A stretch of 44,466 bases of DNA from a virus. Within the stretch, counting starts at the first letter, position 1, and each line of letters opens with the position of its first letter. A program made the position numbers and the translations under genes. Of this stretch, positions 15,477 through 44,466 are shown one piece after another. Where the stretch lies: positions 1 to 44,466 of the IMG/VR virus record IMGVR_UViG_3300027736_000079; one strand, given 5' to 3'. The notes beneath the pieces are model-generated. The model was not told the DNA's origin. It did not search any database and saw nothing but the letters and a program-made list of their open reading frames with translations.

Positions 15477-15489
15477 ACCAACCAACCCC

Positions 15490-15535: not shown

Positions 15536-15550
15536 AAATAAAACTGCCCT

Positions 15551-15916: not shown

Positions 15917-15936
15917 CCTAAAAAAATCCAAACACC

Positions 15937-16218: not shown

Positions 16219-16222
16219 TTTT

Positions 16223-18871: not shown

Positions 18872-18873
18872 TT

Positions 18874-29298: not shown

Positions 29299-29675
29299 GG
29301 ACTAAACGCTACAAGCCTGGCAAGTGGGAAGAAATTGCCCAACCTCAAGACCTCGCCGCCGAACCGGTAGAGCAGACACCCGAGGAGAAAGAGCGCCTTC
29401 TATTGCACTTCTACCGCAAACTCCTCAACGCGATGATCTGGCAGGCCGTGGACGATGTGAGCAATGAAAGCGAATACGCGCAATACAGCAACGCCAGAGA
29501 CGCGGACATGAACATCACCACCGCCGCGCACTTTCTCCGATCTACCTTCTTTCCGAAACTTTGCGAGGCAATGCCGATCAAACTACCCGCGCAAGCCATC
29601 ATCAATGAAGCATTTAAACCACGCAAAAACAATTTGACCGACAGAAAAAATCCCGCAACCTCATCAAATCCATGA
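29295..29675 (+). CDS. Hypothetical early/late-boundary protein
   Basis: A 126-residue helical protein with EEKERLLLHFYRKLLNAMIW and a basic, Asn-rich C-terminus (KPRKNNLTDRKNP). No family is recognised. The ATG lies inside the resolvase stop and its own stop overlaps the next start. Confidence 0.55.
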   Translation: MRTKRYKPGKWEEIAQPQDLAAEPVEQTPEEKERLLLHFYRKLLNAMIWQAVDDVSNESEYAQYSNARDADMNITTAAHFLRSTFFPKLCEAMPIKLPAQAIINEAFKPRKNNLTDRKNPATSSNP

Positions 29676-30274
29676 ACAACCCACCACCCGGATCTTATTG
29701 CACGGACATGGCCGCCGAAATCGATACGCCGCAAGAAACCCTGGCCGATGAGCTGGGCATTCCACTCAAGGCCGCCGGCCTAGTCATGGCTCACGTCGAT
29801 ACCGAGGTCCGCAAGAGCCAAGCCCTCATTCTCGCCAGGGTAATTGGATTGTTACTCAAAGCCTCGAACCTTCCGGCCATGGCGCACGCCATCGCATTCG
29901 CCTCCGGTCTCGACCAACTCAACGGTGCCAAATCCCAAGCCGAGGTGGCAAGAGAGCTAGGCGTAACGAGGGCGCTACTGAGCCACTACACGCTAGGAGT
30001 CCGTGATGTCCTCAGCGGAAAGGACAGTGCATTCGAGTGCACAAAGTTCCGCAAGAGCCAAGCCAGCCGAGAGACATTCCGCGCAAAGGCAACCGACCCA
30101 TTTACTGCCGCGAAAGCGGCGGCAATCGCAAAGAGAAAAAAACAAGATGCCTGCCTAAACAATCTTTTAGACGTGGCAAATGGGAAAAGAGGAACCACAG
30201 AAGTTAGCCAAAGATTAGCACTAAACATTCAATCCGAAATTAACACCAAACTAACAAAAAAATGCAACTCATAG
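29672..30274 (+). CDS. HTH protein, possible late regulator
   Basis: This 200-residue protein has a long helical N-terminal half and, around residues 90-112, a helix-turn-helix SQAEVARELGVTRALLSHYT followed by basic segments (KFRKSQASRETFRAK). The HTH resembles the DNA-binding region of sigma-factor-like or phage late regulators. It lies just before the packaging genes, where such control would be expected. It overlaps the next gene by 13 bases. Confidence 0.55.
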   Translation: MNNPPPGSYCTDMAAEIDTPQETLADELGIPLKAAGLVMAHVDTEVRKSQALILARVIGLLLKASNLPAMAHAIAFASGLDQLNGAKSQAEVARELGVTRALLSHYTLGVRDVLSGKDSAFECTKFRKSQASRETFRAKATDPFTAAKAAAIAKRKKQDACLNNLLDVANGKRGTTEVSQRLALNIQSEINTKLTKKCNS

Positions 30275-30693
30275 ACGCTACCATGTTCACGCTCCACGCG
30301 CTGAACCTACCCGCAACCCTCACCCCAGCCGAGTGGACCGACATCCACCGCGACATCCTAACGTGCAAGAAGGCCGCATCCAAGTGGCTTACGCAATCAC
30401 GCGACTACGGCACCTCACGATGGGGCATAGAGTTTACAGCCGACACCGAGGCGCAGCTCGAGCTAGACCTCGGCCTCGCCCTACCCGAAGCCAAGCCCGC
30501 CCTCAACCCTGCCGACAAGACCAAGGCCATCGTGACCATCGAAGGTTTGAGCCAATCATTCATCCTATGGCAGCGAAAGATGTCGGACGAGATCCAAGGT
30601 TGGGACAAGGACAGGCTCAACCGCGCCCTCGAACTCCTCGAGCCAATGGAGCGCGAGGCCAAGCGCGTCCGCGAACTCCTCGCCAGTGCATAG
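30262..30693 (+). CDS. Hypothetical protein upstream of terminase
   Basis: A 143-residue protein with LTPAEWTDIHRDIL near the start and a helical end (NRALELLEPMEREAKRVREL). No family is recognised. Its TAG begins a run of nine G residues (30,693-30,701). It is the last gene before the terminase leader. Confidence 0.55.
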   Translation: MQLIDATMFTLHALNLPATLTPAEWTDIHRDILTCKKAASKWLTQSRDYGTSRWGIEFTADTEAQLELDLGLALPEAKPALNPADKTKAIVTIEGLSQSFILWQRKMSDEIQGWDKDRLNRALELLEPMEREAKRVRELLASA

Positions 30694-30796
30694 GGGGGGG
30701 GTTAAGGAATCTTTTTAAGTATGTGGATTCTAGCAGTTTGACCAGACGCTCGGTGTTTTTGAGAGTGTTGCATAGTTTTGACACGTTGCATAGGGC
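30694..30796 (+). promoter_or_regulatory. Leader of small terminase gene with repeats; possible cos/pac or promoter region
   Basis: This 103-base gap is one of the longest untranslated stretches in the late region. It starts with part of a G9 run, is T-rich after that, and holds TTGCATAG at 30,768-30,775 and 30,786-30,793, with a third TGCATAG at 30,687. TTGACA at 30,778-30,783 is 13 nt before the GTG start. Packaging sites often lie beside terS, so the repeats may be terminase-binding sites. Confidence 0.45.
30778..30796 (+). promoter_or_regulatory. TTGACA-N13 element before terS
   Basis: TTGACA at 30,778-30,783 is followed by 13 bases ending GGGC and then the GTG start at 30,797. The conserved spacing supports GTG as the true start. 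No -10 box is evident. Confidence 0.5.
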
Positions 30797-31468
30797 GTGG
30801 GCGTCACGGAACTAAGCAACATTTTGGGAATCGACAAGTCGGTGGTCTCGCGCCTCGTCAAGAAAGGGATGCCGACCAACTCGGTGGACGCCGCCCAGGC
30901 GTGGAGGGAGACCAACGCCCCGCCCCGCGCCAAGCGTGGCCAACGAGGCGAGACCCCGCCGGCTCCGAAACTACCGAAGGTCGCCGAACCTCCGAGAGTC
31001 TCAAAGGTCGCCGAACCTCTGCCAGTTCCTCCCCCGCCGGTTGACGCCGTGCCCCCTCCTCGCCATAGCGACCCCGAGCCCGAGGACGAAGACAACACGC
31101 CCCGCCAATCCCTCCGCCGCGCCCGGCTCGCTGAGAAAGTGGGCTACAACGAACTCGTCGTTTGCAAGCGCAACGGCGGAAGCATCGAAGATATCCGAAA
31201 AGCCAACGCCGTCTACATCGCCAGCCGCAACAACCGCCACAAAGCCGAGCGCGACTTCAAGGAATGGCAACGCGACGAAGGCACCCTCTTATTTTTCGAC
31301 GAAGCTCGGGACATTACGGGACGTCCGCACATCGCCGTGCGCCAAACCCTCGAGGTCGCGGCCAAGACACTTGCCCCCAGGCTTCACGGCCAACCTCAAA
31401 AATCCATCGAAAAAACCATCGGCGATTGGATCGACAAGCTCACCGCCCTCATCCGCCAATCAATATGA
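30797..31468 (+). CDS. terS: Terminase small subunit
   Basis: A 223-residue protein starting at GTG 30,797. The N-terminal helix-turn-helix (GVTELSNILGIDKSVVSRLV) is the DNA-recognition domain of Nu1-type small terminases. A long proline-rich linker (PAPKLPKVAEPPRV) leads to a helical oligomerisation and large-subunit-binding region. It would recognise the packaging site. Unusually it is separated from terL by two genes, although all are joined by 4-base overlaps. Confidence 0.75.
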   Translation: MGVTELSNILGIDKSVVSRLVKKGMPTNSVDAAQAWRETNAPPRAKRGQRGETPPAPKLPKVAEPPRVSKVAEPLPVPPPPVDAVPPPRHSDPEPEDEDNTPRQSLRRARLAEKVGYNELVVCKRNGGSIEDIRKANAVYIASRNNRHKAERDFKEWQRDEGTLLFFDEARDITGRPHIAVRQTLEVAAKTLAPRLHGQPQKSIEKTIGDWIDKLTALIRQSI

Positions 31469-31980
31469 CCATCGAACACCTCAAAACCTCCGACCTCATC
31501 CCGTATGCCAGAAATGCGAAAAAGCACGACGCTGCTCAAATTTCTAAGTTGTGCGGAAGTATAAAAGAGTTCGGCTTCACCAACCCCGTCCTCATCGATC
31601 GCGACAACGGCATCATAGCCGGCCACGGTCGCGTGCTCGCCGCTCAATCCCTCGCCCTCGAGTCCGTCCCCTGCATCCGCCTCGGCCACCTCTCCGACAC
31701 GCAGCGCCGAGCCTACATCCTCGCCGACAACCGACTCGCGGAGATCGGCGGTGGGTGGGACGAGGAAATGCTGAAGCTCGAGCTGGCGGATCTTCGTGAG
31801 CTTGATGTTGATTTCGACTGCCTCGGCTTCGATGCTGACATGATCGAGCAAAAGCTAAATCCGCCTGAGCCGGAAGAAAATTACCCTGACTCATCTTCAA
31901 AAGAAATTGACGTGGACGGAATGCAAATGGAATGCGCCTGTCCAAAATGTGGATTTGAATTTGATCCAAAGAAGCCATGA
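31465..31980 (+). CDS. ParB/sulfiredoxin-fold protein with C-terminal zinc ribbon
   Basis: The 171-residue product has a ParB N-terminal fold: LIPYARNAKKHDAAQISKL, GFTNPVLID, GIIAGHGRVLAAQSL, YILADNRLAE. This is the version often found beside phage DNA methyltransferases. It ends with CACPKCGFEFDP, a short zinc-binding motif. The pairing with the following methyltransferase suggests a role in choosing or modifying DNA sites. It sits between terS and terL with ATGA overlaps on both sides. Confidence 0.75.
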   Translation: MTIEHLKTSDLIPYARNAKKHDAAQISKLCGSIKEFGFTNPVLIDRDNGIIAGHGRVLAAQSLALESVPCIRLGHLSDTQRRAYILADNRLAEIGGGWDEEMLKLELADLRELDVDFDCLGFDADMIEQKLNPPEPEENYPDSSSKEIDVDGMQMECACPKCGFEFDPKKP

Positions 31981-33026
31981 AGAAACCAGAATGCGCATGG
32001 ATGCTTGCTGACCTGAAGGCAGTTCCGCAGAACGGAATCAAAGTCATGTCGACTTTTGCTTGCGGTGGCGGAAGCTCAATGGGCTACAAGCGCGCCGGTT
32101 GCCAGATCGTCGCCGCCAATGACATCGACCCGGAAATGGCGTGGCACTACAAGAAGAACCTAAACCCGCCAAACTACTTCCTATGTCCGATCCGCGACTT
32201 GCTCACGGCAGACTTGCCGCCCGAGCTTTTCGCCTTAGACATCCTCGACGGATCGCCGCCGTGCTCGACGTTCAGCATGGCAGGAAGCCGTGAAGAAGGC
32301 TGGGGCAAAGATAAACACTTTCGCGAGGGACAGGCAAAGCAAGTATTGTCTGACCTATTCTTCGACTATCTTGACCTAGTCGAGCGGCTCAAGCCGCGCG
32401 TGGCTATCGCCGAAAACGTCAAGGGCATGATTCTTGGCAATGCCAAAGGCTACACAAAGATGGTGATGGCACGGTTTAAAGAGATCGGATACCGGCCACA
32501 ACTTTTCCTTTTGAACGGGGCGGATTGCGGAGTCCCGCAGCGAAGGGAAAGGGTTTTCTTTGTGGCGATCCGTGACGACATCAAAACACCGCCACTGAAG
32601 CTCGCGCCAAAGCATCGGTGGATTTCAGCTGGTGAGGCGATCGCGGATTTGCGAAATCTAACAGATTCGGAACTGGGTGATAATTTGCTTAGATCAAACA
32701 CAGACAAAACATGGTGGCCATTAACAAAGCCAGGAGAAGATTATGCCGAAGCCGTTCGACGCGCCGGACAAAAAGAAAAACTTTGGAATCACAAAAAACT
32801 TTCTGGGGCTGAACCATCAAGAGGACTTACGGCAACAGATATGTTCAAGCATTGGGATGAGTGCCGAACCCTCACCTTCCGCGAATGGAAACGCCTCGGC
32901 AGCTTTCCTGACGACTACCACGCCAAGACCGACAAGATCGGAAAATACATGATCGGCATGAGCGTCCCGCCAAAGATGACAGAGCAAGTCGCCCGCGCCG
33001 TGATTGATCAGTGGCTCACATCATGA
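31977..33026 (+). CDS. C5-cytosine DNA methyltransferase
   Basis: A complete 349-residue cytosine methyltransferase with the ordered motifs: STFACGGGSSMGYKRAG (motif I), DGSPPCSTFS with catalytic Cys96 (IV), AIAENVKG (VI, Glu146), CGVPQRRERVFF (VIII), a variable target-recognition part around 215-300, and a final motif near YMIGMSVPP. No restriction enzyme lies nearby, so it is an orphan that may protect phage DNA. The target sequence cannot be read. Parts of the gene are less GC-rich than terL. Confidence 0.9.
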   Translation: MKKPECAWMLADLKAVPQNGIKVMSTFACGGGSSMGYKRAGCQIVAANDIDPEMAWHYKKNLNPPNYFLCPIRDLLTADLPPELFALDILDGSPPCSTFSMAGSREEGWGKDKHFREGQAKQVLSDLFFDYLDLVERLKPRVAIAENVKGMILGNAKGYTKMVMARFKEIGYRPQLFLLNGADCGVPQRRERVFFVAIRDDIKTPPLKLAPKHRWISAGEAIADLRNLTDSELGDNLLRSNTDKTWWPLTKPGEDYAEAVRRAGQKEKLWNHKKLSGAEPSRGLTATDMFKHWDECRTLTFREWKRLGSFPDDYHAKTDKIGKYMIGMSVPPKMTEQVARAVIDQWLTS

Positions 33027-34726
33027 CCCCCGCCGCCGAAGCCCTGCGCGAACACCTCCGCTCGATCTACGCGCCGATTGATCGGCGGTCGGTGGTGGAT
33101 TGGTGCGAAGACGAGGTGATCTTGTCAGAAAGGCAAACCCAAATGCCGGGCGCGTTTTCTTGCAACATGACGCCATACCTCCGCGAGCCGCTCGAGTGCT
33201 TCGGCGATGTGGACGTCTCCGACCTTGTGCTGGTCTTTGGAACGCAGACCGGCAAGACCACGATGGTGCAGGCCGGCACGGCATGGCGGATCGTCAACAA
33301 GCCGCAGCCCGTCGTTTGGGTCATGCCCACCGAAGGCCTCGCCCGATCCTTCAGCGAGACTCGCTGGCTTCCGCTATTTGAGGACAGCGCCACCCTCCGC
33401 GATCAGATCCCATCGGACCGCCACAAATTTAAAAACCTCGAGCAGCATTTCAGCCGGTGCTCGCTCGTCTTCGTCGGTTCGAACTCCCCCGCGAATCTTG
33501 CCAGCCGTCCCGCCGGCCTCCTGCTCATGGATGAAGTTGACAAGTTCGCCAGGGAAACCGACTCCGAAACCTCCGCCCTTTTCCTAGCCGAGAACCGCAC
33601 AAAGTCCTTCGTCGGTGCGCTCAGAGTCAAGACCTCCACACCCACCACGCCCGACGGCGCGATCTGGCAGGAATATCTGAAAGGCACACAGGAAAAATAC
33701 ATGCTCGCTTGTCCCCATTGCTCCGAGCGCATCGAGCTCCTCTGGGAGCAAGTGAAGTGGGACTCCACCGCCAAGGAAGAAGGCAAATGGAACATGGCCC
33801 GCGTAGAGGAGTCCGCGCATTACCTCTGCCAGCGGTGCAACGCAAAAATCAACGACGGCCAGAAAATGGAAATGCTCGCCGAGGGTAAATGGCAATCCAC
33901 CAACCCCGCCGCCCAGCGTGGATTCCGCAGCTTCCACCTAAACTCCCTCTACGCCCCGTGGCGCTCCTGCACATTTGGCGCTCTCGCCATCAAGTTCCTC
34001 CGCGACAAGGGAACCATCAACGGCCTTCAAGATTTCACCAACTCCACGATGGCCATGCCGTGGGAGCAAATCGAAACCAGCATCGGCGAGACCAACATTC
34101 TCGCCCTTCGCGGAGACTATCAACGCGGGACATGCCCCATCGAGCCCTCGCATGTCGTCACTTGCGCTGACGTTGGCCAGGACAAACAACACTGGGTCAC
34201 GGTCGCCTTCGATGCCGTCGGCGCTTCTTACGTCCTGGACTACGGAACCACCCTCGCCATCGAGGATCTCCTCGAAGACTCACCGCGCCGCAGCTACCGC
34301 ACGCCATCCGGTGCCGATGTCTCCCCCGAGTGCGGGCTGATGGATTCGGGATTTGCCACCTTCCGAGTTTACACCGCCTGCCAAGCCTCCGGCGGATTCT
34401 GGCACGCAGGAAAGGGTTCCGGTGCCACATTCGGCAGCAAGATTTCCCGCACCGTCCTTCCCGACTTCCCCGGCGTTGTCCTCTATACCTACGTTGACCA
34501 CGCCATCAAGACCGAGCTATTCAGCGACCGCATCCGCAACGCTCACCCGCCGCTCAAGTTGCCGGCCGATTCCACCAACGATTTATTCCGCGGCCTCGGA
34601 GGCCAGCGCCTCGTCCCGCGAAAGACCGCGAGCGGGACCGAGTTGATCTGGAAATCAGTCGCCCAAGATCACTACATGGACGCTTTGAAACTCTGCCACA
34701 TTGCATGGCATGTTTTAAAAAACTGA
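33023..34726 (+). CDS. terL: Terminase large subunit, lambda gpA type
   Basis: This 567-residue packaging motor has an ATPase domain with GTQTGKTT (73-80) and Walker B GLLLMDEVDKF (165-175), and two zinc-like pairs CPHC (230-233) and CQRC (269-272), as in the GpA family. A C-terminal nuclease domain begins near HVVTCADVGQD. It cuts concatemeric DNA and drives it into the head. It is coupled by ATGA to the methyltransferase and followed by a terminator. Confidence 0.93.
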   Translation: MTPAAEALREHLRSIYAPIDRRSVVDWCEDEVILSERQTQMPGAFSCNMTPYLREPLECFGDVDVSDLVLVFGTQTGKTTMVQAGTAWRIVNKPQPVVWVMPTEGLARSFSETRWLPLFEDSATLRDQIPSDRHKFKNLEQHFSRCSLVFVGSNSPANLASRPAGLLLMDEVDKFARETDSETSALFLAENRTKSFVGALRVKTSTPTTPDGAIWQEYLKGTQEKYMLACPHCSERIELLWEQVKWDSTAKEEGKWNMARVEESAHYLCQRCNAKINDGQKMEMLAEGKWQSTNPAAQRGFRSFHLNSLYAPWRSCTFGALAIKFLRDKGTINGLQDFTNSTMAMPWEQIETSIGETNILALRGDYQRGTCPIEPSHVVTCADVGQDKQHWVTVAFDAVGASYVLDYGTTLAIEDLLEDSPRRSYRTPSGADVSPECGLMDSGFATFRVYTACQASGGFWHAGKGSGATFGSKISRTVLPDFPGVVLYTYVDHAIKTELFSDRIRNAHPPLKLPADSTNDLFRGLGGQRLVPRKTASGTELIWKSVAQDHYMDALKLCHIAWHVLKN

Positions 34727-34754
34727 TTTTTGACTCGCCCGCAAAGCCAACAAC

Positions 34755-34802
34755 ACCCGCCACGCCTCTCCACGAAGCGCACCACGGCGGGTTTTTGTTT
34801 TT
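34755..34802 (+). terminator. Rho-independent terminator after terL
   Basis: ACCCGCC at 34,755-34,761 pairs with GGCGGGT at 34,786-34,792 across a 24-base loop and is followed by TTTTGTTTTT. The run leads directly into TTGACA, as at the capsid terminator. The long loop makes it weaker than the others. Confidence 0.7.
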
Positions 34803-34819
34803 GACACCCCGCCGAGGTC
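34801..34819 (+). promoter_or_regulatory. TTGACA-N13 element before gpW-position gene
   Basis: TTGACA (34,801-34,806) plus 13 bases ending GGTC leads to the ATG at 34,820. It follows a terminator T-run directly, the same context as at 2,600 and 39,246. Confidence 0.5.
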
Positions 34820-35095
34820 ATGTCCGACCTCGACAAAATGACAGGCGTTAAGGCCTTCCTCCGCCGCACCAAAACCACGGTGGAGATTGAAGCCCTCGCG
34901 CTTGCAACCTTTGCCAGCGCAACAGAGGAGGTTGTCATCACCTCGCTTTCGACAGACGGCACAGGCACATCCGGGGCGATCTCATTTCCCAAGTGGCTGC
35001 TACTCCAAGCAGTCGAAGAGATCCTCAACGAAGGCCCGACTGGCAGGCAGCTATTTGATATCGCAGACCGTAGCCGATACGGCACCTGCGTTTGA
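34820..35095 (+). CDS. Small head protein in gpW position
   Basis: A 91-residue protein between terL and the portal, where lambda encodes gpW, the head-tail joining protein. It has a helical N-terminus (VKAFLRRTKTTVEIEALALA), a Ser/Thr/Gly-rich middle and a second helix (LLLQAVEEILNEGPTG). The similarity to gpW is by position and size only. Its TGA lies in the TTGACA element of the portal gene. Confidence 0.55.
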   Translation: MSDLDKMTGVKAFLRRTKTTVEIEALALATFASATEEVVITSLSTDGTGTSGAISFPKWLLLQAVEEILNEGPTGRQLFDIADRSRYGTCV

Positions 35096-35110
35096 CAAGC
35101 CCGCTGGGGC
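35092..35110 (+). promoter_or_regulatory. TTGACA-N13 element before portal gene
   Basis: TTGACA (35,092-35,097), containing the stop of the previous gene, is followed by 13 bases ending GGGC and the GTG at 35,111. The spacing matches the other four elements and supports the GTG start. Confidence 0.5.
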
Positions 35111-36865
35111 GTGTCGATAAATCAAAGCGAAATCAAAGTATCAAAGCGGGGTGGCTTACGCCCAGGGGCCGGACGCCCACGCAAGCCAGAAGCCAAGGCC
35201 GCCGCGTTTGAAGCCGCTCAACCCTCGCTGAATCGCGGCTACATCTGGATGCCGACCACCGACCCCAAGCGCGAGCTCACGCCCACCTCGCGCATGGAGA
35301 TCCTGCGACTCGCTCGCTGGCTTTACAATAACGCGCCACAAGCCACCTACATTGTCGAGCATCTCGCCCAGCGTGCTATCGGCACAGGCATTGTCGTCCA
35401 GCCTAAAACCTCGAATCTCGCGTGGAACAAAAAGGTCGATCAGTATTTTGAAGATCGCAACTGCGCTGAGGCGTGGGCATTTGATGCCGGCGCACAGGTG
35501 AATTTCTACACCGCGCAATCTCTCATACTCCGACAAGTCGCCATCGATGGTGATTTTTTCGCCCAATTTCTCACGACAAAACAGAACGCATCCCGCGTCC
35601 GCTTTATCGGTGGCGAGGCCGTCGGCGGCATCAACTCATTTGGCAACACAGACGAGTTCACGCATGACGGCGTGCGCCTCGACCCATTCGGTGCGCCCTC
35701 CGCTTATATCATCGACGGTCAAGACATCCTCGCCGATCAAGTCCTACACTTCCGCCACATCCGCCGGCACGGTCAACCCCGTGGCGTTTCATGGCTGCAT
35801 TCCGCATGCGCCAACCTCCGCGATATTTCCGAAATCAACGGATTCGTCAAGGGAGCCTACAAGGCCGGATCTCAAATCGGCTACATGGTCACCTCCTCCG
35901 AGGTCGCCAAGATCGGACTCGGTTCAGGTTTTAAATCTACCAGCAACGAAGTCGGCGACCTTTCCACAAGCGACCTCCCGAACGGCATCCTCTTGCCCCG
36001 CCTCAAGCCAGGCGAAAAGCTCGAAGCCTTTAAAAACGACATCCCCGGCCAGACCTATGAAGCCGTAATGCGTGCGCTCCGCTCAGATGTCGCCTTCGCC
36101 ATCGGCCTCCCACCCGAAGCCATGCTGGTCAATGTCGGACTCGGAGGCACCGAGCAACGCGCCGTTCTCGAAGTCACGCAGAATTTCCTAGAGCGCCTGC
36201 AACAAATGGTCATCGATCAGTTTTGCCGCCCTTACTACAAGTATTGGCTCTGGCATGAGATCCAAGCCGGTCGATTGGATTACCCTGGTGATGATTGGTG
36301 GCGTCACGAATGGCTCGCCCCACGCAAGATCACGGTGGACTCAGGCCGCGACGCCCGCGCCTACAGCGAACAACTCGACAAGGGCCACATCTCACCGACT
36401 CGCTTTTACAACATGCAAGGCCTCCGCGCCGAAGAGGAAGAGGAAGACGTCATCCAGACCTTCCTTCGCCGCAAAGCCAAATGCGAATCCCTCGGGCTCA
36501 ACATCTCCGAAGTATTTCCGAACTCCGTCAGCCGAGGCATAGCGGCCCAACAACCCGCCGCGCCAGATCAAGGCGGTTCCGAAGATCAACCACAAACCCA
36601 AGAAGGCGAAATTTTCGACATGCAGGCGAAAGAAAAACTCGACGCCATCGGCGCAGCCGTGCGAGCCGGTGTCATTACGCCCTCGCAAGAAGTCGAAAGC
36701 TCCATCCGCTCCATGCTGGCCTTGCCAGAAATGAATGAGGAAGTCCTAAGCGAATGGAACAAAAACCCAATCCGCTCACCGATCACGCTCACCAACGCGC
36801 TTGCCGATCCGGTCCAGCCGACACCGCCACCACTCCCCGAAGATTTAACACCCATCGAACCATGA
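35111..36865 (+). CDS. Portal protein, lambda gpB family, phage B
   Basis: The 584-residue product starts at GTG 35,111. It has the lambda-type portal plan: TSRMEILRLARWLYNNAPQA in the N-terminal wing, IVEHLAQRAIGTGI, VAIDGDFFAQFL, then QPRGVSWLHSACANLRDISE and GQTYEAVMRALRSD in the stem and crown region. The first 30 residues carry GGLRPGAGRPRKPE, an AT-hook-like arm that is unusual for a portal. The C-terminus is a helical and Pro-rich tail identical to the fragment at window start. Confidence 0.88.
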   Translation: MSINQSEIKVSKRGGLRPGAGRPRKPEAKAAAFEAAQPSLNRGYIWMPTTDPKRELTPTSRMEILRLARWLYNNAPQATYIVEHLAQRAIGTGIVVQPKTSNLAWNKKVDQYFEDRNCAEAWAFDAGAQVNFYTAQSLILRQVAIDGDFFAQFLTTKQNASRVRFIGGEAVGGINSFGNTDEFTHDGVRLDPFGAPSAYIIDGQDILADQVLHFRHIRRHGQPRGVSWLHSACANLRDISEINGFVKGAYKAGSQIGYMVTSSEVAKIGLGSGFKSTSNEVGDLSTSDLPNGILLPRLKPGEKLEAFKNDIPGQTYEAVMRALRSDVAFAIGLPPEAMLVNVGLGGTEQRAVLEVTQNFLERLQQMVIDQFCRPYYKYWLWHEIQAGRLDYPGDDWWRHEWLAPRKITVDSGRDARAYSEQLDKGHISPTRFYNMQGLRAEEEEEDVIQTFLRRKAKCESLGLNISEVFPNSVSRGIAAQQPAAPDQGGSEDQPQTQEGEIFDMQAKEKLDAIGAAVRAGVITPSQEVESSIRSMLALPEMNEEVLSEWNKNPIRSPITLTNALADPVQPTPPPLPEDLTPIEP

Positions 36866-37986
36866 CCACACCCAACTCCACTCCGAAATTTTATGCAATG
36901 GAATCCACCGGCAACAACGAAACCACGGTCACTCTTTACGACGAAATCGGTGCTTTTGGCGCAGGCTCAAAACAATTCCTCGGAGACCTTAGTAAGCTCT
37001 CCGGTCAGCACATCCACCTCCGCATCAACTCGCCCGGTGGGTCCGTGGTTGAGGGAACGGCCATTTACAATGCGCTCCGCAGGCATCAAGGCGGGGTGAC
37101 CGTTCACATCGACGCGCTCGCCGCCTCGATGGCCTCCGTCATCGCCATGGCCGGCGCTCCGGTCTACATAGCCGACAACGCCCTGATGATGATCCATAAC
37201 CCTTGGACCGTCAGCATGGGAGGAAGCGAAGACCTTCGCAAAGAAGCCGACCTCCTTGACATGCTCAAAGTCAATCTGCGCAACGCCTACGTCCGCAAGA
37301 CCGGCATGAGCGAAACCGATATTTCCGCCATGATGGACGCCGAGACATGGCTCGACGCAGTGGACGCCGTCGCCCTCGGATTTGCCGACGCCATCGAAGA
37401 AGGAGTCGCAGCAGCTGCAACAGCCACCCCCGAAAATCTCCGCGCTCGTTTTGACACCTTCGCGAAGGGAAAACCTATGGACAACATCGAACCAACCGCC
37501 GCCCCAGAAGTAGAGGCAACCGTCGTGAGCGAATCCGCTCCAGTTGAGCAACCAGCTACCGAACCCGCTCCCGCCGTGGAAGCCGAACCCGTAGCACAAG
37601 AAGTCATCACCCCCGCTATCGAGGAAATCGGCGAAACTCCCGCCGTCGAAGAGCCACAAGCCAAGATTACCGGCGCAGACAGCATCCTTGCAAAATACAA
37701 CGCCGTTATCACCGAGCGTGACGAAGCCGTTGCATCCCTCAAAGAAGCCAGCGCAAAAATCGAGATCTTGCACAATGTGATCAACACAGAACGCGAAGCC
37801 CTTGCCCGCCTTGAGCGTAGCCTCGGCCTATCCGCAGCCCGCGAAATCCCAGCTGTCACGCCAACAGAAAACGCCGCAAACATCTACGACCAGTGGAAAA
37901 ACGCCACCGGCGCAGAGAAGACCCGCATCTTCCGAGCCAACCGCAAGGCGCTCGAAATCGCATCCAAAAATTTGACACCGCAATAA
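36862..37986 (+). CDS. Phage B prohead protease/scaffold fusion, ClpP/S49-like
   Basis: A 374-residue counterpart of the gene at 242, with the same catalytic motifs (AASMAS, MMIHNPW, DAETWLDAVDA). It is seven residues longer because the coiled coil (TERDEAVASLKEASAKIEIL) replaces an unrelated stretch in copy A, while both flanks (DSILAKYN and ARLERSLGLSAAR) match. This is a local module exchange inside one gene. The ATG overlaps the portal stop. Confidence 0.9.
   Translation: MTTPNSTPKFYAMESTGNNETTVTLYDEIGAFGAGSKQFLGDLSKLSGQHIHLRINSPGGSVVEGTAIYNALRRHQGGVTVHIDALAASMASVIAMAGAPVYIADNALMMIHNPWTVSMGGSEDLRKEADLLDMLKVNLRNAYVRKTGMSETDISAMMDAETWLDAVDAVALGFADAIEEGVAAAATATPENLRARFDTFAKGKPMDNIEPTAAPEVEATVVSESAPVEQPATEPAPAVEAEPVAQEVITPAIEEIGETPAVEEPQAKITGADSILAKYNAVITERDEAVASLKEASAKIEILHNVINTEREALARLERSLGLSAAREIPAVTPTENAANIYDQWKNATGAEKTRIFRANRKALEIASKNLTPQ
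37477..37986 (+). CDS. Possible internally started scaffold protein, phage B
   Basis: The ATG at 37,477 (MDNIEPTAAP) would give a 169-residue scaffold. TTGACA at 37,451-37,456 lies 20 nt before it, exactly as in copy A, although surrounding bases differ. It is listed on the lambda Nu3 analogy; the start is not proven. Confidence 0.35.
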   Translation: MDNIEPTAAPEVEATVVSESAPVEQPATEPAPAVEAEPVAQEVITPAIEEIGETPAVEEPQAKITGADSILAKYNAVITERDEAVASLKEASAKIEILHNVINTEREALARLERSLGLSAAREIPAVTPTENAANIYDQWKNATGAEKTRIFRANRKALEIASKNLTPQ

Positions 37987-38029
37987 TTCACGAAAACCCG
38001 AATCCAACCCACCAACTCAAAATAACATC

Positions 38030-38935
38030 ATGGCCACTACCATCAGCTCCGAACTTAAACTGAATGTCGTTCTCGACAGCGCTCTCATCGCGCTTCGTGA
38101 AGCACTTCTCCCACTCAACTCTTTCTCGACTGTCTACAACAGCGTACCGCTGCAAGGCACCGACAAGATCGCCGTTCCCTTCTTCCCTCTCGCCACAGAC
38201 GCGACGAGCGACTTCAACGGAACGTATGCGTTCTCCGATTCAAACGCGATCAACAGCCGCGAGATCACGGTGAACAAGCGCAAGTATCAAGCGCTCTCCT
38301 TCACATCGAGCGAACTCGCTCGCCAGCCTTACTTCAACCCCGAGCAACTCGGATTCTTGAAAGGCCGCAAGCTCGCCGAAGACATTCTCCGCGACATCCT
38401 CGGAGTCGTGACGCTCGCCAACTACGGCGCAGCGATCCACACCGGCGCAGCTTCCAGCTTCGACAGCGACGATTTGATCACCATGAAGACCGTGCTCGAC
38501 CAATCCAAATGGGCGAAATCCAGCCGCGTCATGATCCTCGACAACGCTTATGAAGGCGCTCTTCTCAAAGACGCATCGATCAAAAACGCAGCCGCAGTCG
38601 GCAGCGCATCCGCAATCCAAAACGGACGCCTCCCACAGATCGCTGGCTTTGACGTTATCGGCACCAACCTTATCCCCGGCAACTCGCAGAACCTTGTCGG
38701 AATGGTTGCTCTTCCAGAAGCAATATTGGTTGCCTTCTCGCCAGTGGCCCCATCGCCCGGCGTTCGCAACAATCTCACAGCATACGAAGTGGCAGTCGAT
38801 CCAGAGACCGGCCTTACCATCGAGTACCGTAGCTGGGGCGATCCTGACACCGACACCGAGAAATCAGTTATCGAGGTCAACTACGGCTTCGCACTCGGCC
38901 ACGCCGCCGCCCTCAAGCGCATCGTTTCAGCTTAA
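38030..38935 (+). CDS. Phage B major capsid protein
   Basis: This 301-residue protein differs from copy A at two residues only, both Ile in place of Met or Val. Silent changes are scattered along the gene, so the copies are not an assembly echo of one sequence. The 43-base leader is unchanged. The role is main capsid subunit, as for copy A. Confidence 0.85.
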   Translation: MATTISSELKLNVVLDSALIALREALLPLNSFSTVYNSVPLQGTDKIAVPFFPLATDATSDFNGTYAFSDSNAINSREITVNKRKYQALSFTSSELARQPYFNPEQLGFLKGRKLAEDILRDILGVVTLANYGAAIHTGAASSFDSDDLITMKTVLDQSKWAKSSRVMILDNAYEGALLKDASIKNAAAVGSASAIQNGRLPQIAGFDVIGTNLIPGNSQNLVGMVALPEAILVAFSPVAPSPGVRNNLTAYEVAVDPETGLTIEYRSWGDPDTDTEKSVIEVNYGFALGHAAALKRIVSA

Positions 38936-38940
38936 TCTTC

Positions 38941-39177
38941 ATGCGCCTTGGAATCACACTCGCACGCAACGGCGACACTTGGCAGGTCAAGCACCTGCCC
39001 AGCGTCCCGCTCGCCGAGCAACTCACCGACTTCAAAGCCAAGCAAGTAGCCGGTGAGTTCAGCGCAGACGAAACCATCATCGTATCACTCAACGAAACTC
39101 TGAAGCGCCACGCCTCAAAGCACAGCGCCGTTGTTGAAGTCGAAGGCATGGAAGAGTCGCCCAAGAAGAAGAAGTAA
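38941..39177 (+). CDS. Small conserved protein after the capsid gene, phage B
   Basis: The 78-residue product is one residue longer than copy A (an extra Gly in VEVEGMEESPKKKK). Position, leader and following terminator are the same. The function is unknown. Confidence 0.8.
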   Translation: MRLGITLARNGDTWQVKHLPSVPLAEQLTDFKAKQVAGEFSADETIIVSLNETLKRHASKHSAVVEVEGMEESPKKKK

Positions 39178-39208
39178 TTCCTCGCGCCTCACAGCGCCCA
39201 ACCCGCAA

Positions 39209-39247
39209 AGCCCGGCTGGAGCCTTTCCCAGCCGGGCTTTTCTTTTT
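39209..39247 (+). terminator. Rho-independent terminator after capsid operon, phage B
   Basis: AGCCCGGCTGG (39,209-39,219) pairs with CCAGCCGGGCT (39,228-39,238) and is followed by TTTCTTTTT. The stem is identical to copy A and only the loop differs. Confidence 0.93.
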
Positions 39248-39264
39248 GACACCTCGCCACGGGT
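39246..39264 (+). promoter_or_regulatory. TTGACA-N13 element before head-tail gene, phage B
   Basis: TTGACA (39,246-39,251), 13 bases ending GGGT, then ATG at 39,265. The 13 bases differ from phage A at several places but the spacing and final GGGT are kept. Confidence 0.5.
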
Positions 39265-39588
39265 ATGTCGCCCGACGCGATCCGCACCTTCACTCTCACC
39301 GCCGCCGCGCTGCGCAATTCCGCCCTTGGCCACACGGCCACCTTCCGCAGCCAGCCCCTTCGCGTCGTTCTCTCGCCCATCGCCATCGGCCTCGATCTCG
39401 AGACGGGCGGACTTCGCCAGGGCGGGGAATTCACTTGCCGATTTTTGGCAACATCCCTGAGCACCCCGCCGCGCCGTGGCGAGCAGATCCTTGTCGGTGG
39501 CAAGGCCTACACGATCCAGACCCTCAAAGAGGTCATCACCACCCCAGGCGAATACGTCGCCATGATCTCCCCCGGCTCCTCCTTATGA
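39265..39588 (+). CDS. Head-tail connector/adaptor protein, phage B
   Basis: A 107-residue homologue of 2619-2942, the same length but with well under half of its residues identical. It keeps GLDLETGGLRQGGEFTCRFL and PPRRGE. The abrupt change from near-identity upstream to distant homology here marks the mosaic boundary. Its stop overlaps the next start. Confidence 0.65.
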   Translation: MSPDAIRTFTLTAAALRNSALGHTATFRSQPLRVVLSPIAIGLDLETGGLRQGGEFTCRFLATSLSTPPRRGEQILVGGKAYTIQTLKEVITTPGEYVAMISPGSSL

Positions 39589-39989
39589 ACGCAGCCCTTG
39601 AACTCGCCATCCGCGATTGGCTCCTCGCCGATCCCGACCTTGCCGACATCGTGATCCTCACCGGACAGAGCGCTGAGATCATCCCCGGCGATCAGCCCGT
39701 GATCGTCGTTGGCCTCGACTCCAACACGGTCCTCGTTGCCAACATATCAAAAGCCATTGTCTCGCTGGTATTGGCCACACCCTGCGAACTGGAAGGCGGC
39801 CTCGACGCCCACCAAGCTCTCACCTCCCGGCTGCATTCGCTCGCCGTCCCACCGAACGACCTCGCCGATTATTTCCCCGCCACCTTGCGCCTGGCTGGAT
39901 CTGTTTTGACGTCGATCAACAACTCCATTTCGGAAGGCCGGTGGCTTTGCACGTTGCAAATCTCGCTCGGCCTCGTCGCCGAAATTTGA
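39585..39989 (+). CDS. Tail completion/terminator-like protein, phage B
   Basis: A 134-residue homologue of 2939-3337, sharing EIIPGDQPVIVV and the end VAEI. The ATG overlaps the previous TGA. The TGA falls inside TTGACA at 39,985. Phage B has no equivalent of the small 3355 gene and continues with the tube-like pair after a 28-base A-rich leader. Confidence 0.6.
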   Translation: MNAALELAIRDWLLADPDLADIVILTGQSAEIIPGDQPVIVVGLDSNTVLVANISKAIVSLVLATPCELEGGLDAHQALTSRLHSLAVPPNDLADYFPATLRLAGSVLTSINNSISEGRWLCTLQISLGLVAEI

Positions 39990-40017
39990 CACCCGCAAAT
40001 TAACGAAACCCACCACC

Positions 40018-40335
40018 ATGCCATCTACCACTCAAACTTTTGGAATCACCGGCATCTCGAGCGCCAGCTTGCTCGTCAAGTCGATGGAGCACACCAAGTC
40101 AGCGCAAAAAACGGAACTCCAAGGGCCGACCGGTGAGACCGTCGCCGTTGGCTATTATGGCTTCAAAGAAGAGCTTTCCATCTCCGCCGTAGGCGATCTC
40201 ACAGCAGCGCAAAGCGTAGGCGCCACATTGGCTCTCACTGGGGCTCCTGCTGGCACTTGGAAGATCGATTCCATCTCCACCAGTCGCTCGCTCGAGGGCT
40301 TTGCCGAAATCCAAATCTCTGCCTCCAACTCCTAA
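40018..40335 (+). CDS. Small beta-rich tail protein, possible tail tube, phage B
   Basis: The product has 105 residues with alternating strands and the end SISTSRSLEGFAEIQISAS. That ending resembles the ending of the next gene (VVVSKSSDGFAKVKIAAT), so the two are probably paralogues. It occupies the slot of 3606-3914 in phage A. A tail-tube role is likely but not proven. Confidence 0.5.
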   Translation: MPSTTQTFGITGISSASLLVKSMEHTKSAQKTELQGPTGETVAVGYYGFKEELSISAVGDLTAAQSVGATLALTGAPAGTWKIDSISTSRSLEGFAEIQISASNS

Positions 40336-40340
40336 TCATT

Positions 40341-40700
40341 ATGGCCGCAAAATTTTTCTCAACGCAAACGACCGAATTCGGAATGTCCGACGAAGCCGGG
40401 CTGATGGTTCAGTCGTTCTCCTACGACGTGTCGTCCGACAAAGCCGAGGTCATGGACATCTCCGGCGACATCGTCCAAACGCACCGTTTCAACAAAAAAG
40501 CCTCGATTTCCATCGAGGGCCTTGCGTCCTCATCGTCCGTAGAGGTCGGCGACGAGATGGCCTCCATTGCCAATACCGCGATGGGCCAACTCGGAGGCAC
40601 GATCCTCGTTGATTCTGTGGTCGTTTCCAAAAGCTCCGACGGCTTCGCCAAGGTCAAAATTGCCGCGACGCAATACGACCTCACGCTCACCGAGCAATAA
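40341..40700 (+). CDS. Second small beta-rich tail protein, phage B
   Basis: This 119-residue protein starts at ATG 40,341, five bases after the previous stop. It has EVMDISGDIVQTHRFNKKAS and ISIEGLASSSSVEVGD followed by strand-rich sequence. It corresponds to 3917-4237 of phage A and is followed by a terminator, so most tail-tube transcripts would end here. Confidence 0.5.
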   Translation: MAAKFFSTQTTEFGMSDEAGLMVQSFSYDVSSDKAEVMDISGDIVQTHRFNKKASISIEGLASSSSVEVGDEMASIANTAMGQLGGTILVDSVVVSKSSDGFAKVKIAATQYDLTLTEQ

Positions 40701-40715
40701 AATACCCACGCCGCT

Positions 40716-40748
40716 GGCTCCCCGGCTAACCGGGAGCCGCCCTTTTTT
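40716..40748 (+). terminator. Rho-independent terminator after tail-tube genes, phage B
   Basis: GGCTCCCCGG (40,716-40,725) pairs with CCGGGAGCC (40,730-40,738) with one bulged C and a CTAA loop, followed after GCCC by TTTTTT. The corresponding place in phage A has only a stem without T-run. Confidence 0.85.
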
Positions 40749-40768
40749 GAGAAATAGAACCCGAAATA

Positions 40769-41161
40769 ATGAACCGCTCCTACACGTCCACCGGTAACCT
40801 CAAAGCCGCATCGGCACTCGCCACGCTCGGATTTGACTTCCACGAATCCACTCCCTGCGTCCGCATCGCCCGCGAAGATGGCAAGGAATCCAGCGCCTAC
40901 TGGGTCGCCGAAGATGGCCCCCGAGGCATGCGCGCCAGTAAGGTCATCCACTGGATGACCAAAGGCCACGCCGAGCTCGAGGAGTCCGACGCCGAGCACC
41001 CCGTCAATTACATCCGCGCCGGATTTATTAACCGCGAGCGTCTCATCGATCTTCACCACGACACGACTCGAACGATTGAGATCCGCCGCAACGGCAAAAT
41101 CCTTCTTCTCTCCGAAAACGCCACGCAGGAAACGCGGCAAAAATTCGCCAAGTTTTTCTAA
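40769..41161 (+). CDS. Hypothetical tail-region protein, phage B
   Basis: A 130-residue protein with a leader lacking Shine-Dalgarno bases. It has LATLGFDFHESTPCVRIARE, ASKVIHWMTKGHAELEES and a basic strand region (EIRRNGKILLLSEN). No family is recognised. It lies before the chaperone gene like 4289-4792 of phage A, but sequence similarity is not evident. Confidence 0.55.
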   Translation: MNRSYTSTGNLKAASALATLGFDFHESTPCVRIAREDGKESSAYWVAEDGPRGMRASKVIHWMTKGHAELEESDAEHPVNYIRAGFINRERLIDLHHDTTRTIEIRRNGKILLLSENATQETRQKFAKFF

Positions 41162-41178
41162 AAACCAAAACCAAAAAA

Positions 41179-41577
41179 ATGAAAACAAAACAAAAACCCA
41201 ACGACAACGATTTTGCAAAAGACGACGACGCACTCCGCCTCCAAGGCATGCGCCCCGGGTCCACCAAAGTCGGCGACCTCAAGCTCCGCCGCTTTGTGCC
41301 AGGCACCATCGACATCGTCCAGAGCAACAGCACGGGCAAAAAGGGCAACTTCTGGTCGGTCGCCGCTTTCGGCTACGTTCACACCGTCCCGCTCGACGAA
41401 GTGCTCGAGATCGCAGACAACCCCGACGCCTTCTCCCGCGCCGTTCGCAAATGGCATATTGAGAATTTTGAAACCCTCGAATCTCAAGCCGCGCTCACCG
41501 AGGCCGTGAAGCTCGAGTTCGAGCGCATCAACGCATCGGAGTCCACCTCAGCCACGGGCAACTCGTCGGGAAACTAA
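41179..41577 (+). CDS. Tail assembly chaperone, short (gpG-like) form, phage B
   Basis: This 132-residue protein, the same length as its phage A counterpart, has an A-rich leader (AACCAAAAAAATG). It contains LKLRRFVPGTIDIVQ and a helical C-terminal half ending SATGNSSGN. The slippery heptamer GGGAAAC (G GGA AAC, 41,568-41,574) lies directly before the TAA stop. Confidence 0.75.
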   Translation: MKTKQKPNDNDFAKDDDALRLQGMRPGSTKVGDLKLRRFVPGTIDIVQSNSTGKKGNFWSVAAFGYVHTVPLDEVLEIADNPDAFSRAVRKWHIENFETLESQAALTEAVKLEFERINASESTSATGNSSGN

Positions 41578-41795
41578 ACAGCCCCAACTGGCTCGCCTCT
41601 TATGTTTACCAAGTCGCGAAACTTACTGGTTGGGGCCATCACGCCATTTTATTCGAGGTCCCATTCACGGCAGGACTGCAACTCCTGCACGCAGACGCCA
41701 CCGCGCAGGGAGCACCCAAAGCCTGGAAGCGCAATAACACCGCAGCCGCTTTTGACTTGGCCAGCGATATAGAAGCTGTCTTTGCAAAACTATGA
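41179..41795 (+). CDS. Tail assembly chaperone, -1 frameshift (gpGT-like) form, phage B
   Basis: Slippage at GGGAAAC would join 41,179-41,574 to 41,574-41,795, giving 205 residues. The extension reads LNSPNWLASYVYQVAKLTGW, then GHHAILFEVPF and ends DIEAVFAKL. Much of it, from the slip to past 41,750, has no ATG start of its own in this frame, so translation by frameshift is the simplest reading. WLAS...LTGW matches WLAS...KTGW in the phage A extension. Its TGA overlaps the next ATG. Confidence 0.78.
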
Positions 41796-42409
41796 GCCAA
41801 TCCCTTTCCATGTCAGTCGCCAACCTCGGCCTTATGCGAGCCTTCGATGAGATCGCAAAGGCCGCCGGCGTGACTTACAAGGAAGTGGTTCGCAGCGAAG
41901 CAGCCAAGATCCTCGAAGCCGCCTCTAGGAACACCCTAGCTGCACAAGTGCAACTCATAGAAAAAAACGTCAATGCGGCACCACGGCGGAAGCTTAATGG
42001 CAAGCTCTACAAGATGTCTTGGAAGCTGCCCGATGCCGTGTGGGCAATGGCGCAAGCTCAGATCTCCGCCTCCATCAAGCGCCGCAAAGCCTCTCGGGGC
42101 CTTGCCAAGAAAAGCTGGATACAAGTTGCACAAAGCATCGGCCTCTCAGTGAGCGCACCACGCTACGTCGAAGCCGCCACTACTAAAAACGGCGACTATC
42201 CGGGCGACGGCAAAGCCACAGAGGAATCCAACGGCTCGGACTTCGCCATCGTCCTCCGCAACTCTCGCACCTACTCGCCCTCGGTCTTCGATGCCATCCG
42301 CAAGGCCATGAATGGACGCGAGAAATTCTTCCGCAAAAACATGGAACTCGGCGTCTTTAAGAGCATCGAAACCATCGCCGCAAAATACCCCGGCCTTTAC
42401 ACAAAATGA
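41792..42409 (+). CDS. Hypothetical tail protein upstream of tape measure, phage B
   Basis: A 205-residue basic, helical protein (SIKRRKASRGLAKKSW) between the chaperone extension and the tape measure. The ATG at 41,792 overlaps the stop of the frameshift product but not that of the short form, which itself supports the frameshift. It may be distantly related to 5410-6189. The function is unknown. Confidence 0.6.
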   Translation: MSQSLSMSVANLGLMRAFDEIAKAAGVTYKEVVRSEAAKILEAASRNTLAAQVQLIEKNVNAAPRRKLNGKLYKMSWKLPDAVWAMAQAQISASIKRRKASRGLAKKSWIQVAQSIGLSVSAPRYVEAATTKNGDYPGDGKATEESNGSDFAIVLRNSRTYSPSVFDAIRKAMNGREKFFRKNMELGVFKSIETIAAKYPGLYTK

Positions 42410-44466
42410 GCGAAACCCTCGAAGTCAAAATAGGCGCATCCGACGCCGGATTAGAAGCCACCCTCAAGACCGTCCAATCGGAATTGGCAAGGCTGGACAC
42501 CAAGATCAAAGGCGGCGACCTCTCATTCAAAGAGCTCGACCAGACGATGCGGAAGATCGCTCAGACCGAAGGCCTCGAGAAGAAACTAAAATCCATGGGC
42601 ACCGACGCCGCCGGCACCTCGCCGAAGATCGACGCCCTCGGTGGCGACCTCAAGGCCATGGGAGCCAAAGCCGAAGACGCAGGCGAGAAAGGCCACATGA
42701 GCCTCGGCAAGATCGGCCTCGCCGCAGGCGTCGCCGGTGCCGCCGTTAAGGTTGGCATGATGGCAGTCGAAGCCGCGTTTGCCGCAGCGAATGGAGTCAT
42801 CAACGCATTCGGTTCAGCGATCACGAAAGCCGCCGATTTTCAACAACTGGAAACGAGTTTCAATGTGCTGATTGGAAATACGACGCTCGCAAAAACATTT
42901 TTGGAAGACCTCACATCCTTCGCGGCATCAACTCCGTTCACGATCCCAGGCCTTGCGGACGCGTCAAAGACTCTCCTTTCATTTGGCGTCATGTCATCAG
43001 AAGTCCTCCCAATCGTGTCCATGCTCGGTGACGTTGCTCAAGGCAACGAAGAAAAACTAAAATCCCTAGCCTTGGCATTTGGAAAAGTCGAATCACAGGG
43101 CAAACTCACAGGCGAAGAACTGAACCAGATGATCGACTCTGGCTTCAATCCGCTAGATACCATTTCGCAAAAAACAGGCAAGAGCATGGGCGAGCTCCGA
43201 AAAGAAATGGAGCAGGGAGGCATTACATCGCAGATGGTGCGCGATGCCTTTACAGATGTCACTTCCGAAGGTGGCAAATTCTTTGAAATGACGAAAAATC
43301 AGGGCCTGACATTCAACGGTGTCATGTCCACCATGCAGGATGCCGTAGATGACCTCTACCGGCGCTTTGGTAAGCCAGTAATTGAGGCTCTGACTCCGAT
43401 CATTCAAAAATGGTCTGAGCGAATAGCCGAGATCGCACCACTCTTTTCAGAAATTGGCGCAGCCGTCGCAAATACAATCACCTTTTTCTCGGACCTTGTG
43501 GACAAGGTTCTGAATGTCGATTCCGCCGTCAGCAATTTAAGCAGCAGCATCTCGGCCATCTCCGGTGGAGAATATGCCGCCGGCATCGAAAACCTTTTTC
43601 TCTCCATGAAAGTGTGGGCCATGGAAACAGGGAATGAGATTTACAAGTATTTAGGAGCAGCATTTACAACGGCAGCAGATTTTTTAGTAACTACACTCGG
43701 GCCATCTAGCGCAGGGTTCGCCCTACTTGAAACGGGATTTAGCATTCTTGCCGGCAAAGTAAAAGTAGAGCTTTTAGCTGGTATTGCTTCCGCGATGGAA
43801 GGAATGGGGCCGTTGTTTGCAAATGGAGCCAAAACTGCAAAATATCAAATGGAGACAGCTGCTAACTCTGTCAAGATGTTGACATTTGGACTTGGAGCAC
43901 AAGTTGAGCTTGTGCAAGAGCAGATGACCGAAGCAGGCGCAGCATTGCCAAAATCATTTTCTGAAAATTACAAAGATGTACCTCCGCTTTTTGATGACAT
44001 CAAATCAACTCAAGATCAGATCGACGCGAACAATGCAAAGATCGCGGCTTCTACAAAAACAATTGTATTGACTGACGAGGAGGCCGTTGCAGAAGCCAAG
44101 GCCTATTTTGACCAGTGGAAAAAAAGCAATGACCTTAAAGAGCAAGCCATCGCTCGCGCACTTGAAGAAAAGAAAATAAAATCCGAAGCTCTCCAGTTTG
44201 AGCTCGATCTCGCCACAGCAAAAGCGACAGGCAACCAAGCCGAGATCAAAGCCCTCGAAGAGCGCAAGGTATGGCTCGATGCTTGGCAAAAAGCAGTAAA
44301 GGAAGGAATGGGAGACGAGCAAGCCAACGCCTTCGCAGACGCCATGCTCCGCACCAAGCAGATCACCGACAGCATTTCGGGCAAAGACATCATCATCACC
44401 GTCACCACTACGGTCGAAGACAAGCGCTGGAAGACACTTCTCGCCGAGATCAATAGTGCCACGGCC
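42406..44466 (+). CDS. Tape measure protein, phage B (N-terminal part)
   Basis: The frame is open from ATG 42,406 to the window end (687 codons) and continues beyond. A coiled-coil start (EATLKTVQSELARLDTKIKG) and hydrophobic segment (IGLAAGVAGAAVKVGMMAV) lead into a conserved tape measure domain: FNVLIGNTTLAKTFLEDL, FAASTPFTIPGL, SLALAFGKVESQGKLTGEEL and QMIDSGFNPL. The second half is less GC-rich than the rest of the tail genes. It shows no clear relation to tape measure A, so the two tails probably differ in length. Confidence 0.9.
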   Translation, partial: MSETLEVKIGASDAGLEATLKTVQSELARLDTKIKGGDLSFKELDQTMRKIAQTEGLEKKLKSMGTDAAGTSPKIDALGGDLKAMGAKAEDAGEKGHMSLGKIGLAAGVAGAAVKVGMMAVEAAFAAANGVINAFGSAITKAADFQQLETSFNVLIGNTTLAKTFLEDLTSFAASTPFTIPGLADASKTLLSFGVMSSEVLPIVSMLGDVAQGNEEKLKSLALAFGKVESQGKLTGEELNQMIDSGFNPLDTISQKTGKSMGELRKEMEQGGITSQMVRDAFTDVTSEGGKFFEMTKNQGLTFNGVMSTMQDAVDDLYRRFGKPVIEALTPIIQKWSERIAEIAPLFSEIGAAVANTITFFSDLVDKVLNVDSAVSNLSSSISAISGGEYAAGIENLFLSMKVWAMETGNEIYKYLGAAFTTAADFLVTTLGPSSAGFALLETGFSILAGKVKVELLAGIASAMEGMGPLFANGAKTAKYQMETAANSVKMLTFGLGAQVELVQEQMTEAGAALPKSFSENYKDVPPLFDDIKSTQDQIDANNAKIAASTKTIVLTDEEAVAEAKAYFDQWKKSNDLKEQAIARALEEKKIKSEALQFELDLATAKATGNQAEIKALEERKVWLDAWQKAVKEGMGDEQANAFADAMLRTKQITDSISGKDIIITVTTTVEDKRWKTLLAEINSATA

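Follow-up and report, generated by a model that had tools for sequence, protein, structure and literature searches.

The DNA stretch analyzed here, called the window, comprises 44,466 nucleotides (44 kb) of the virus record IMGVR_UViG_3300027736_000079 of IMG/VR, in which a short word, TTTGACA, stands before late genes, 13-14 nt from their probable transcription start. The window encodes head and packaging proteins (a GpA-type large terminase, a lambda-type portal, a ClpP-type head protease, and a major capsid protein) together with an integrase, RecT, exonuclease VIII, a resolvase, and an endolysin, gene content that identifies it as a tailed, probably temperate phage. Positions 1-2802 are duplicated as 36621-39448 with 91% identity, and the head region is thus present twice.

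A preliminary description of this DNA had drawn attention to the hexamer TTGACA exactly 13 nt before the start codon of five packaging and head genes, with the hexamer at 2600, 30778, 34801, 35092, and 39246 and the starts at 2619, 30797, 34820, 35111, and 39265. All five sites exist as described, although those at 2600 and 39246 stem from a single region that is duplicated and so are not independent. The pattern TTGACA-N13-RTG (N13, 13 nt between box and start codon; R, purine) occurs 5 times in the window vs. 0.41 expected from shuffled sequence (largest shuffle 3) and 0.20 predicted for the plus strand by an order-3 Markov model (at most 2 in 300), so the claim that this spacing is unlikely by chance holds at 5 vs. 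0.2-0.4 expected, even with one of the five a duplicate. The true element is one base longer: TTTGACA occurs 14 times on the plus strand and once on the minus strand, and all 14 plus-strand copies adjoin late genes (packaging, head, or tail), while the window's TTGACA words without the extra T lie mostly within coding sequence or in the early region. The plus-strand sites are listed below, each from the first base of its box.

830-857, plus strand: TTTGACA-N13-A, proposed start 850, leader AAAACCT, ATG 857; nested in the protease gene (134-1345)
1330-1389, plus strand: TTTGACA-N14-GAAAACCC, proposed start 1351, G-poor leader, major capsid ATG 1389
2599-2619, plus strand: TTTGACA-N13-ATG, 107-aa gene following the capsid gene
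3333-3355, plus strand: TTTGACA-N13-AA-ATG, 82-aa open reading frame (ORF)
3426-3448, plus strand: TTTGACA-N13-AA-ATG, 51-aa ORF
13080-13108, plus strand: TTTGACA-N21-ATG, tail/fiber gene (13108-14304), leader ...AGCGGC
14524-14583, plus strand: TTTGACA-N14-GAACACCC, proposed start 14545, leader to ATG 14583 (297-aa gene)
30777-30797, plus strand: TTTGACA-N13-GTG, small terminase gene terS (30797-31468; phrog_57 terminase small subunit); proposed late promoter and leaderless start
34800-34820, plus strand: TTTGACA-N13-ATG, gene of 91 aa that lies between the large terminase and portal genes
35091-35111, plus strand: TTTGACA-N13-GTG, portal gene (35111-36865); box overlaps the upstream gene's TGA stop
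37450-37477, plus strand: second putative nested scaffold start, ATG 37477, within the protease gene (36754-37986)
37971-38030, plus strand: duplicate of the 1330 site, with putative promoter and leader of the major capsid gene; ATG at 38030
39245-39265, plus strand: paralog of the 2599 site, in the duplicated region
39985-40018, plus strand: TTTGACA-N13-GAAACCC, proposed start 40005, leader to ATG 40018 (105-aa gene)

The preliminary description had overlooked both major capsid sites (1330 and 37971) and the one at 14524, each with its ATG 52 nt beyond the box; at two sites that it had listed with 20-nt spacing (857 and 37477) the box is real, and the starts are in-frame internal ones in the ClpP-type protease gene.

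We then turned to relatives of the window. A terminase search matched 134 viral contigs and one genome contig, from a Verrucomicrobia metagenome-assembled genome (MAG), and word enrichment was assessed in about 180 related viral contigs of uncultured Verrucomicrobia viruses. A prior-free search of this set ranked TTTGACA first among 7-mers enriched ahead of ORFs (81 occurrences vs. 6.2 expected), and 395 of its distinct copies lie on the coding strand vs. 11 on the opposite strand (for TTGACA, 292 vs. 32 distinct contexts). With enrichment this strong, the outcome that the preliminary description had named as refuting its claim, no enrichment in relatives, did not occur. With two of the five original sites being copies, chance or the inheritance of a single duplicated region might have been invoked, but the many unrelated gene families, the several phage lineages, this strand excess, and the synonymous conservation described below already refute that explanation, to which we assign next to no probability. 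In a sub-group whose capsid gene is without TTTGACA, the top upstream words are TTGACAC and ATTGACA; at locus L173 and about 19 similar loci, CAAACTTTGAAACC replaces TTTGACA before the capsid gene and ATTGACA is used at other genes.

Across 381 distinct sites in relatives, covering many gene families, N13 (146) and N14 (45) form the peak of box-to-start-codon distances, with smaller groups at N15-23 and N41-54, such that the "exactly 13" of the preliminary description is dominant but not exact. (Where several starts were possible, this count chose N13 or N14, slightly favoring the peak; unfiltered counts show the peak too.) Within the family of the 91-aa gene starting at 34820, 51 of 52 distinct sites are at N13. 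Such regularity, with the start codon at N13 or N14 in 191 distinct sites and a box even marking the internal start of the protease gene, could reflect a translation signal in which, with no Shine-Dalgarno (SD) sequence involved, UUUGACA guides the ribosome to a start codon 13-15 nt further on.

What stays constant, however, is the distance from the box to a pyrimidine-purine (YR) step 13-14 nt downstream, rather than to the start codon. At leadered sites, i.e., those where the purine does not belong to the start codon, the step opens a G-poor leader beginning GAAACCC or GTAACCC, and 33 such sites out of 41 distinct ones (11 families) show G[AT]A at N13/N14, compared with a mean of 1.3 and a maximum of 7 in shuffles. 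Among capsid orthologs, where the TTTGACA box is present at 53 of 74 loci, TTTGACA-N14-GAAACCC is constant while the ATG varies over N41-53. Scaffold orthologs have their ATG at N14 (...GGGC-ATG), N20 (...AAGC-AAAATCT-ATG), or N23 (...AGGC-ATCAAGCTCT-ATG), with the first hyphen in each marking the step, and where the ATG is shifted the purine stays at N13/14; similarly, the 107-aa gene family starts at N13, N15, or N16, with the N15 and N16 variants retaining a pyrimidine-A step at N13. Together, the leadered sites and the moving start codons establish the YR step as the constant, with which the start codon often coincides through its purine. As bacterial transcription starts usually take the YR form, we read this step as a putative +1, and the mRNAs of N13 genes would accordingly be leaderless, their 5' end being the start codon. 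A translation signal would be expected to follow the start codon, and it is the start codon that moves (N14/N20/N23 in scaffold genes, N41-54 before capsid genes) while the N13/14 step stays in place; a by-eye look for complementarity between box and ribosomal RNA yielded nothing convincing, nor is there an obvious match to the 16S 3' end. An SD word (AGGAG-like, 5-10 nt before the start) is likewise not found, the N13 stretches being C/G-rich. We therefore consider translational guidance quite unlikely.

Nucleotide-level constraint is evident where the box lies inside a gene. The boxes at 830 and 37450 fall in the protease frame (...R-F-D-x-F-A...), and in orthologous sequences collected by a regular expression that fixed amino acids only, TTT GAC A is kept at the codon level in 27 of 27 distinct sequences, whereas the Phe two residues on is encoded by TTC in 21 and TTT in 6, and nearby Arg, Leu, and Ala codons vary. 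Since the box is invariant while its neighboring codons vary, its nucleotides are conserved beyond the amino acids they encode. The in-frame internal ATG downstream (857 and 37477) is predicted to be a nested scaffold start of the lambda C/Nu3 kind, with a C-terminal product of 169 aa from 37477.

The two boxes below directly follow apparent intrinsic terminators; at 34800, too, a terminator-like inverted repeat rich in G+C, read from the sequence, runs with its T tract into the box.

2561-2594, plus strand: intrinsic terminator whose 13-bp stem is the longest on the plus strand in a scan of 1-19500; it ends within the T tract of the box at 2599
39207-39240, plus strand: intrinsic terminator whose 13-bp stem is the longest in a scan of 30000-44466; it ends within the T tract of the box at 39245

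A promoter placed directly after a terminator makes sense, while a translation element at that position would require a read-through transcript.

TTGACA is also the exact -35 consensus of sigma-70 promoters and is found at all window sites, raising the question of whether the boxes are ordinary -35 elements whose -10 is too weak to see. When 45 dereplicated N13/14 sites were aligned on the box, the only upstream information was the extra T, N1-N7 were C/G-rich, and GGC occupied -3 to -1 before the start codon, with no conserved -10 or second box and no TATAAT-like -10 at 16-18 bp, the positions after the box being C/G-rich and uninformative. The sigma-70 -35 hexamer is thus present without its -10 hexamer, in agreement with the preliminary description, and none of these boxes serves a sigma-70-like promoter; a sigma-70 start would moreover be expected inside the genes, beyond the start codon. 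An ordinary sigma-70 promoter is therefore very improbable. A hairpin between the N13 halves (GCC...GGC) was also tried and rejected: in a swap test 183 of 1000 shuffles reached the observed stem length for N13 sites and 28 of 1000 for N14 sites, values using Watson-Crick pairs only were not significant, and a paired, covarying RNA structure in the N13 stretch is not supported.

Some individual sites carry further sequence features. At the putative terS promoter, a direct repeat, GTTGCATAG, occurs twice (30767-30775 and 30785-30793, 18 bp apart), flanking TTTTGACAC; at locus L049 both copies near terS read GTTCAATA, so that the two halves change together, and the repeat is possibly an operator or a terminase (cos/pac) site. 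The tail/fiber start (13087-13107) reads GCCGCT...AGCGGC-ATG, and many relatives keep AGCGGC directly 5' of the ATG at spacings of N19-N22.

To place the signal among phages and hosts, we counted it beyond the immediate relatives. Differences in base composition kept an initial genome-wide comparison with a reversed-pattern control from being decisive. The largest sample of host chromosome, from G027, had 1 occurrence vs. 1.3 expected, no enrichment, which speaks against a general host signal; the excess in G001 stems mainly from a second prophage. An IMG/VR-wide scan for TTTTGACA-N10-GGCRTGNC found that, among the matches listed, 96 of 124 start ORFs of at least 60 aa, compared with 6 of 71 for a control with the same letters and 3 nt more spacing, and many of the matches listed lie in phages with genes unrelated to the window's (L318, L281, L341, L307, L313). 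Another prophage of the same Verrucomicrobia MAG has TTGACA-N13/14/15 at structural genes, and in a second prophage lineage of 12 genomes related to that MAG, TTGACA-N13/14 precedes most protease starts and also a nested start about 800 nt on. The motif is absent from the late genes of a second, different phage into which the MAG contig carrying the window's relative continues, from the closest cultured phage (Akkermansia host, 36% across the terminase), and from a Rhizobium phage with one distantly shared protein. The signal thus tracks several distant phage and prophage lineages in and around Verrucomicrobiota, without being universal there. As a separate observation, the unrelated second phage on the MAG contig (G001:C79; L083, L241, L242) directly follows the window's relative at about 38-57 kb, and this contig is possibly chimeric.

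The window itself has further structural peculiarities. Its right end (42406-44466, vs. 6194-8614) continues into a second, different tape-measure gene, and this together with the head-region repeat indicates either two strains merged in assembly or a genuine duplicated head-tail module. The tape-measure gene additionally holds a 255-bp tandem duplication (96%) at 7659-8168, and a ParB-like protein and a C5-cytosine methylase are encoded between the small and large terminase genes (31162-33026).

We also searched the window for a protein that might read the box, and found one weak candidate.

29672-30274, plus strand: helix-turn-helix (HTH) protein directly upstream of the late genes, weak candidate late regulator

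In close relatives this protein is conserved just before terS, the classical place for a late regulator. Its AlphaFold model is too poor to use (mean predicted local distance difference test score, pLDDT, 49.6), and matches from iterated hidden Markov model searches in other lineages may be generic HTH or small-terminase proteins. The window proteins scanned gave no match to any RNA polymerase or sigma family, several having no match at all, and no candidate for an RNA-processing nuclease was found.

Taken together, these results lead us to propose, with a probability of roughly 70%, that a phage late promoter is recognized through TTTGACA, with transcription starting at the purine of the YR step and the N13 genes being leaderless. 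Among the three options the preliminary description had offered, the data favor this one, a late promoter of an unusual factor, over a translation start signal, which the constancy of the YR distance disfavors, and over a recombination linker, which draws no support given a strand-specific word directly before gene starts with differing flanks. Under the proposed mechanism, the box would sit at about -20 to -14, be read by a phage or phage-recruited factor, and direct transcription to begin 13-14 nt past its last base. Leaderless mRNAs would result for terS, the gene after the large terminase, the portal, the 107-aa gene, and many scaffold genes, while the major capsid gene and some others would receive a G-poor leader starting GAAACCC or GTAACCC. 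Because each block would have its own box, strong terminators directly upstream could be tolerated, and a shorter scaffold protein could be made from inside the protease gene.

Several points weigh against this proposal. The family-averaged YR frequency, unweighted by leader type, shows only a moderate N13/14 peak (0.42 + 0.36); a few scaffold sites have G rather than a pyrimidine just before the purine; and the site counts in relatives are not all independent events, owing to shared ancestry. To our knowledge, no RNA polymerase fits a box at -20 to -14 with a C/G-rich -13 to -1 and no -10, and homologs of the HTH protein are absent from or undetected in distant carrier lineages. In addition, a fixed YR distance independent of the start codon would suit an RNA signal, i.e., a sequence-specific endonuclease cutting a long late transcript 13-14 nt after UUUGACA to give leaderless or otherwise defined 5' ends, and the hairpin before the box would then additionally shield the preceding RNA at its 3' end. 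Such a transcript would, however, first have to be antiterminated across the strong intrinsic terminators directly 5' of boxes, and neither a supported paired structure in the N13 stretch nor a nuclease candidate has emerged, making cleavage unlikely.

Going beyond the late promoter itself, we would put at even odds the broader proposition that it represents an undescribed promoter class (TTTGACA/TTGACA at about -20 to -14, G+C-rich -13 to -1, YR start), shared by several unrelated Verrucomicrobiota phage lineages, served by a phage-carried or phage-recruited factor, and using leaderless mRNAs to produce most late structural proteins, the portal and a nested scaffold protein among them. Few Verrucomicrobia phages have been cultured. 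If the proposal is true, late-gene start points could be read from sequence across a large uncultured virus group, gene-start calls (nested scaffold genes included) could be corrected, virion proteins would rely heavily on leaderless translation, and the transcription machinery involved would make DNA contacts (-20 to -14, no -10) unlike those of known sigma factors and phage polymerases. The motif is also usable as a marker of such phages and prophages in metagenomes.

Finally, we compared the element with known systems, none of whose promoters has this layout; the open-access literature searched held nothing directly relevant on Verrucomicrobia phage promoters, TTGACA start motifs, or leaderless late promoters. 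It shares TTGACA with the sigma-70 -35 box but has no -10 and a proposed start 13-14 nt downstream rather than about 29 nt. T4-type late promoters likewise consist of a single box (TATAAATA) and serve many late genes each with its own promoter, but their box is at -10 and of A+T only. The lambda C/Nu3 arrangement similarly has an in-frame internal scaffold start in the head protease gene; the internal start here differs in having its own TTTGACA element. The late promoters of jumbo phage AR9, AACA-6N-T[A/G], are read by a non-virion RNA polymerase (PMC5312081), and resemble the present element in setting one short box a constant number of nucleotides ahead of a pyrimidine-purine start and in being many, dispersed, and in part located inside ORFs. 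The box is different, however (here TTTGACA-N12-YR), lies 6-7 nt from the start in AR9 vs. 13 nt here, and the AACA-6N-TR motif of AR9/phiKZ-type late promoters is not found; AR9 also encodes its own multisubunit RNA polymerase, whereas none is among the window's annotated proteins. The Start-Associated Sequences (SAS) of Cluster K mycobacteriophages, 13-bp GGGATAGGAGCCC repeats (PMC3203893), are also short, asymmetric, in one orientation, and just upstream of many phage starts. They contain an SD core 3-7 bp from the ATG of non-structural genes, whereas TTTGACA is without SD, 13-54 nt upstream, and at late structural genes, whose start codons have no GGGATAGGAGCCC-like repeat 3-7 bp ahead of them. 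Neither system matches in sequence, spacing, or gene class, and as a putative phage late promoter the element has a geometry assignable to no known reader; in function it comes closest to the AR9 late promoter, and in position to the Cluster K SAS.

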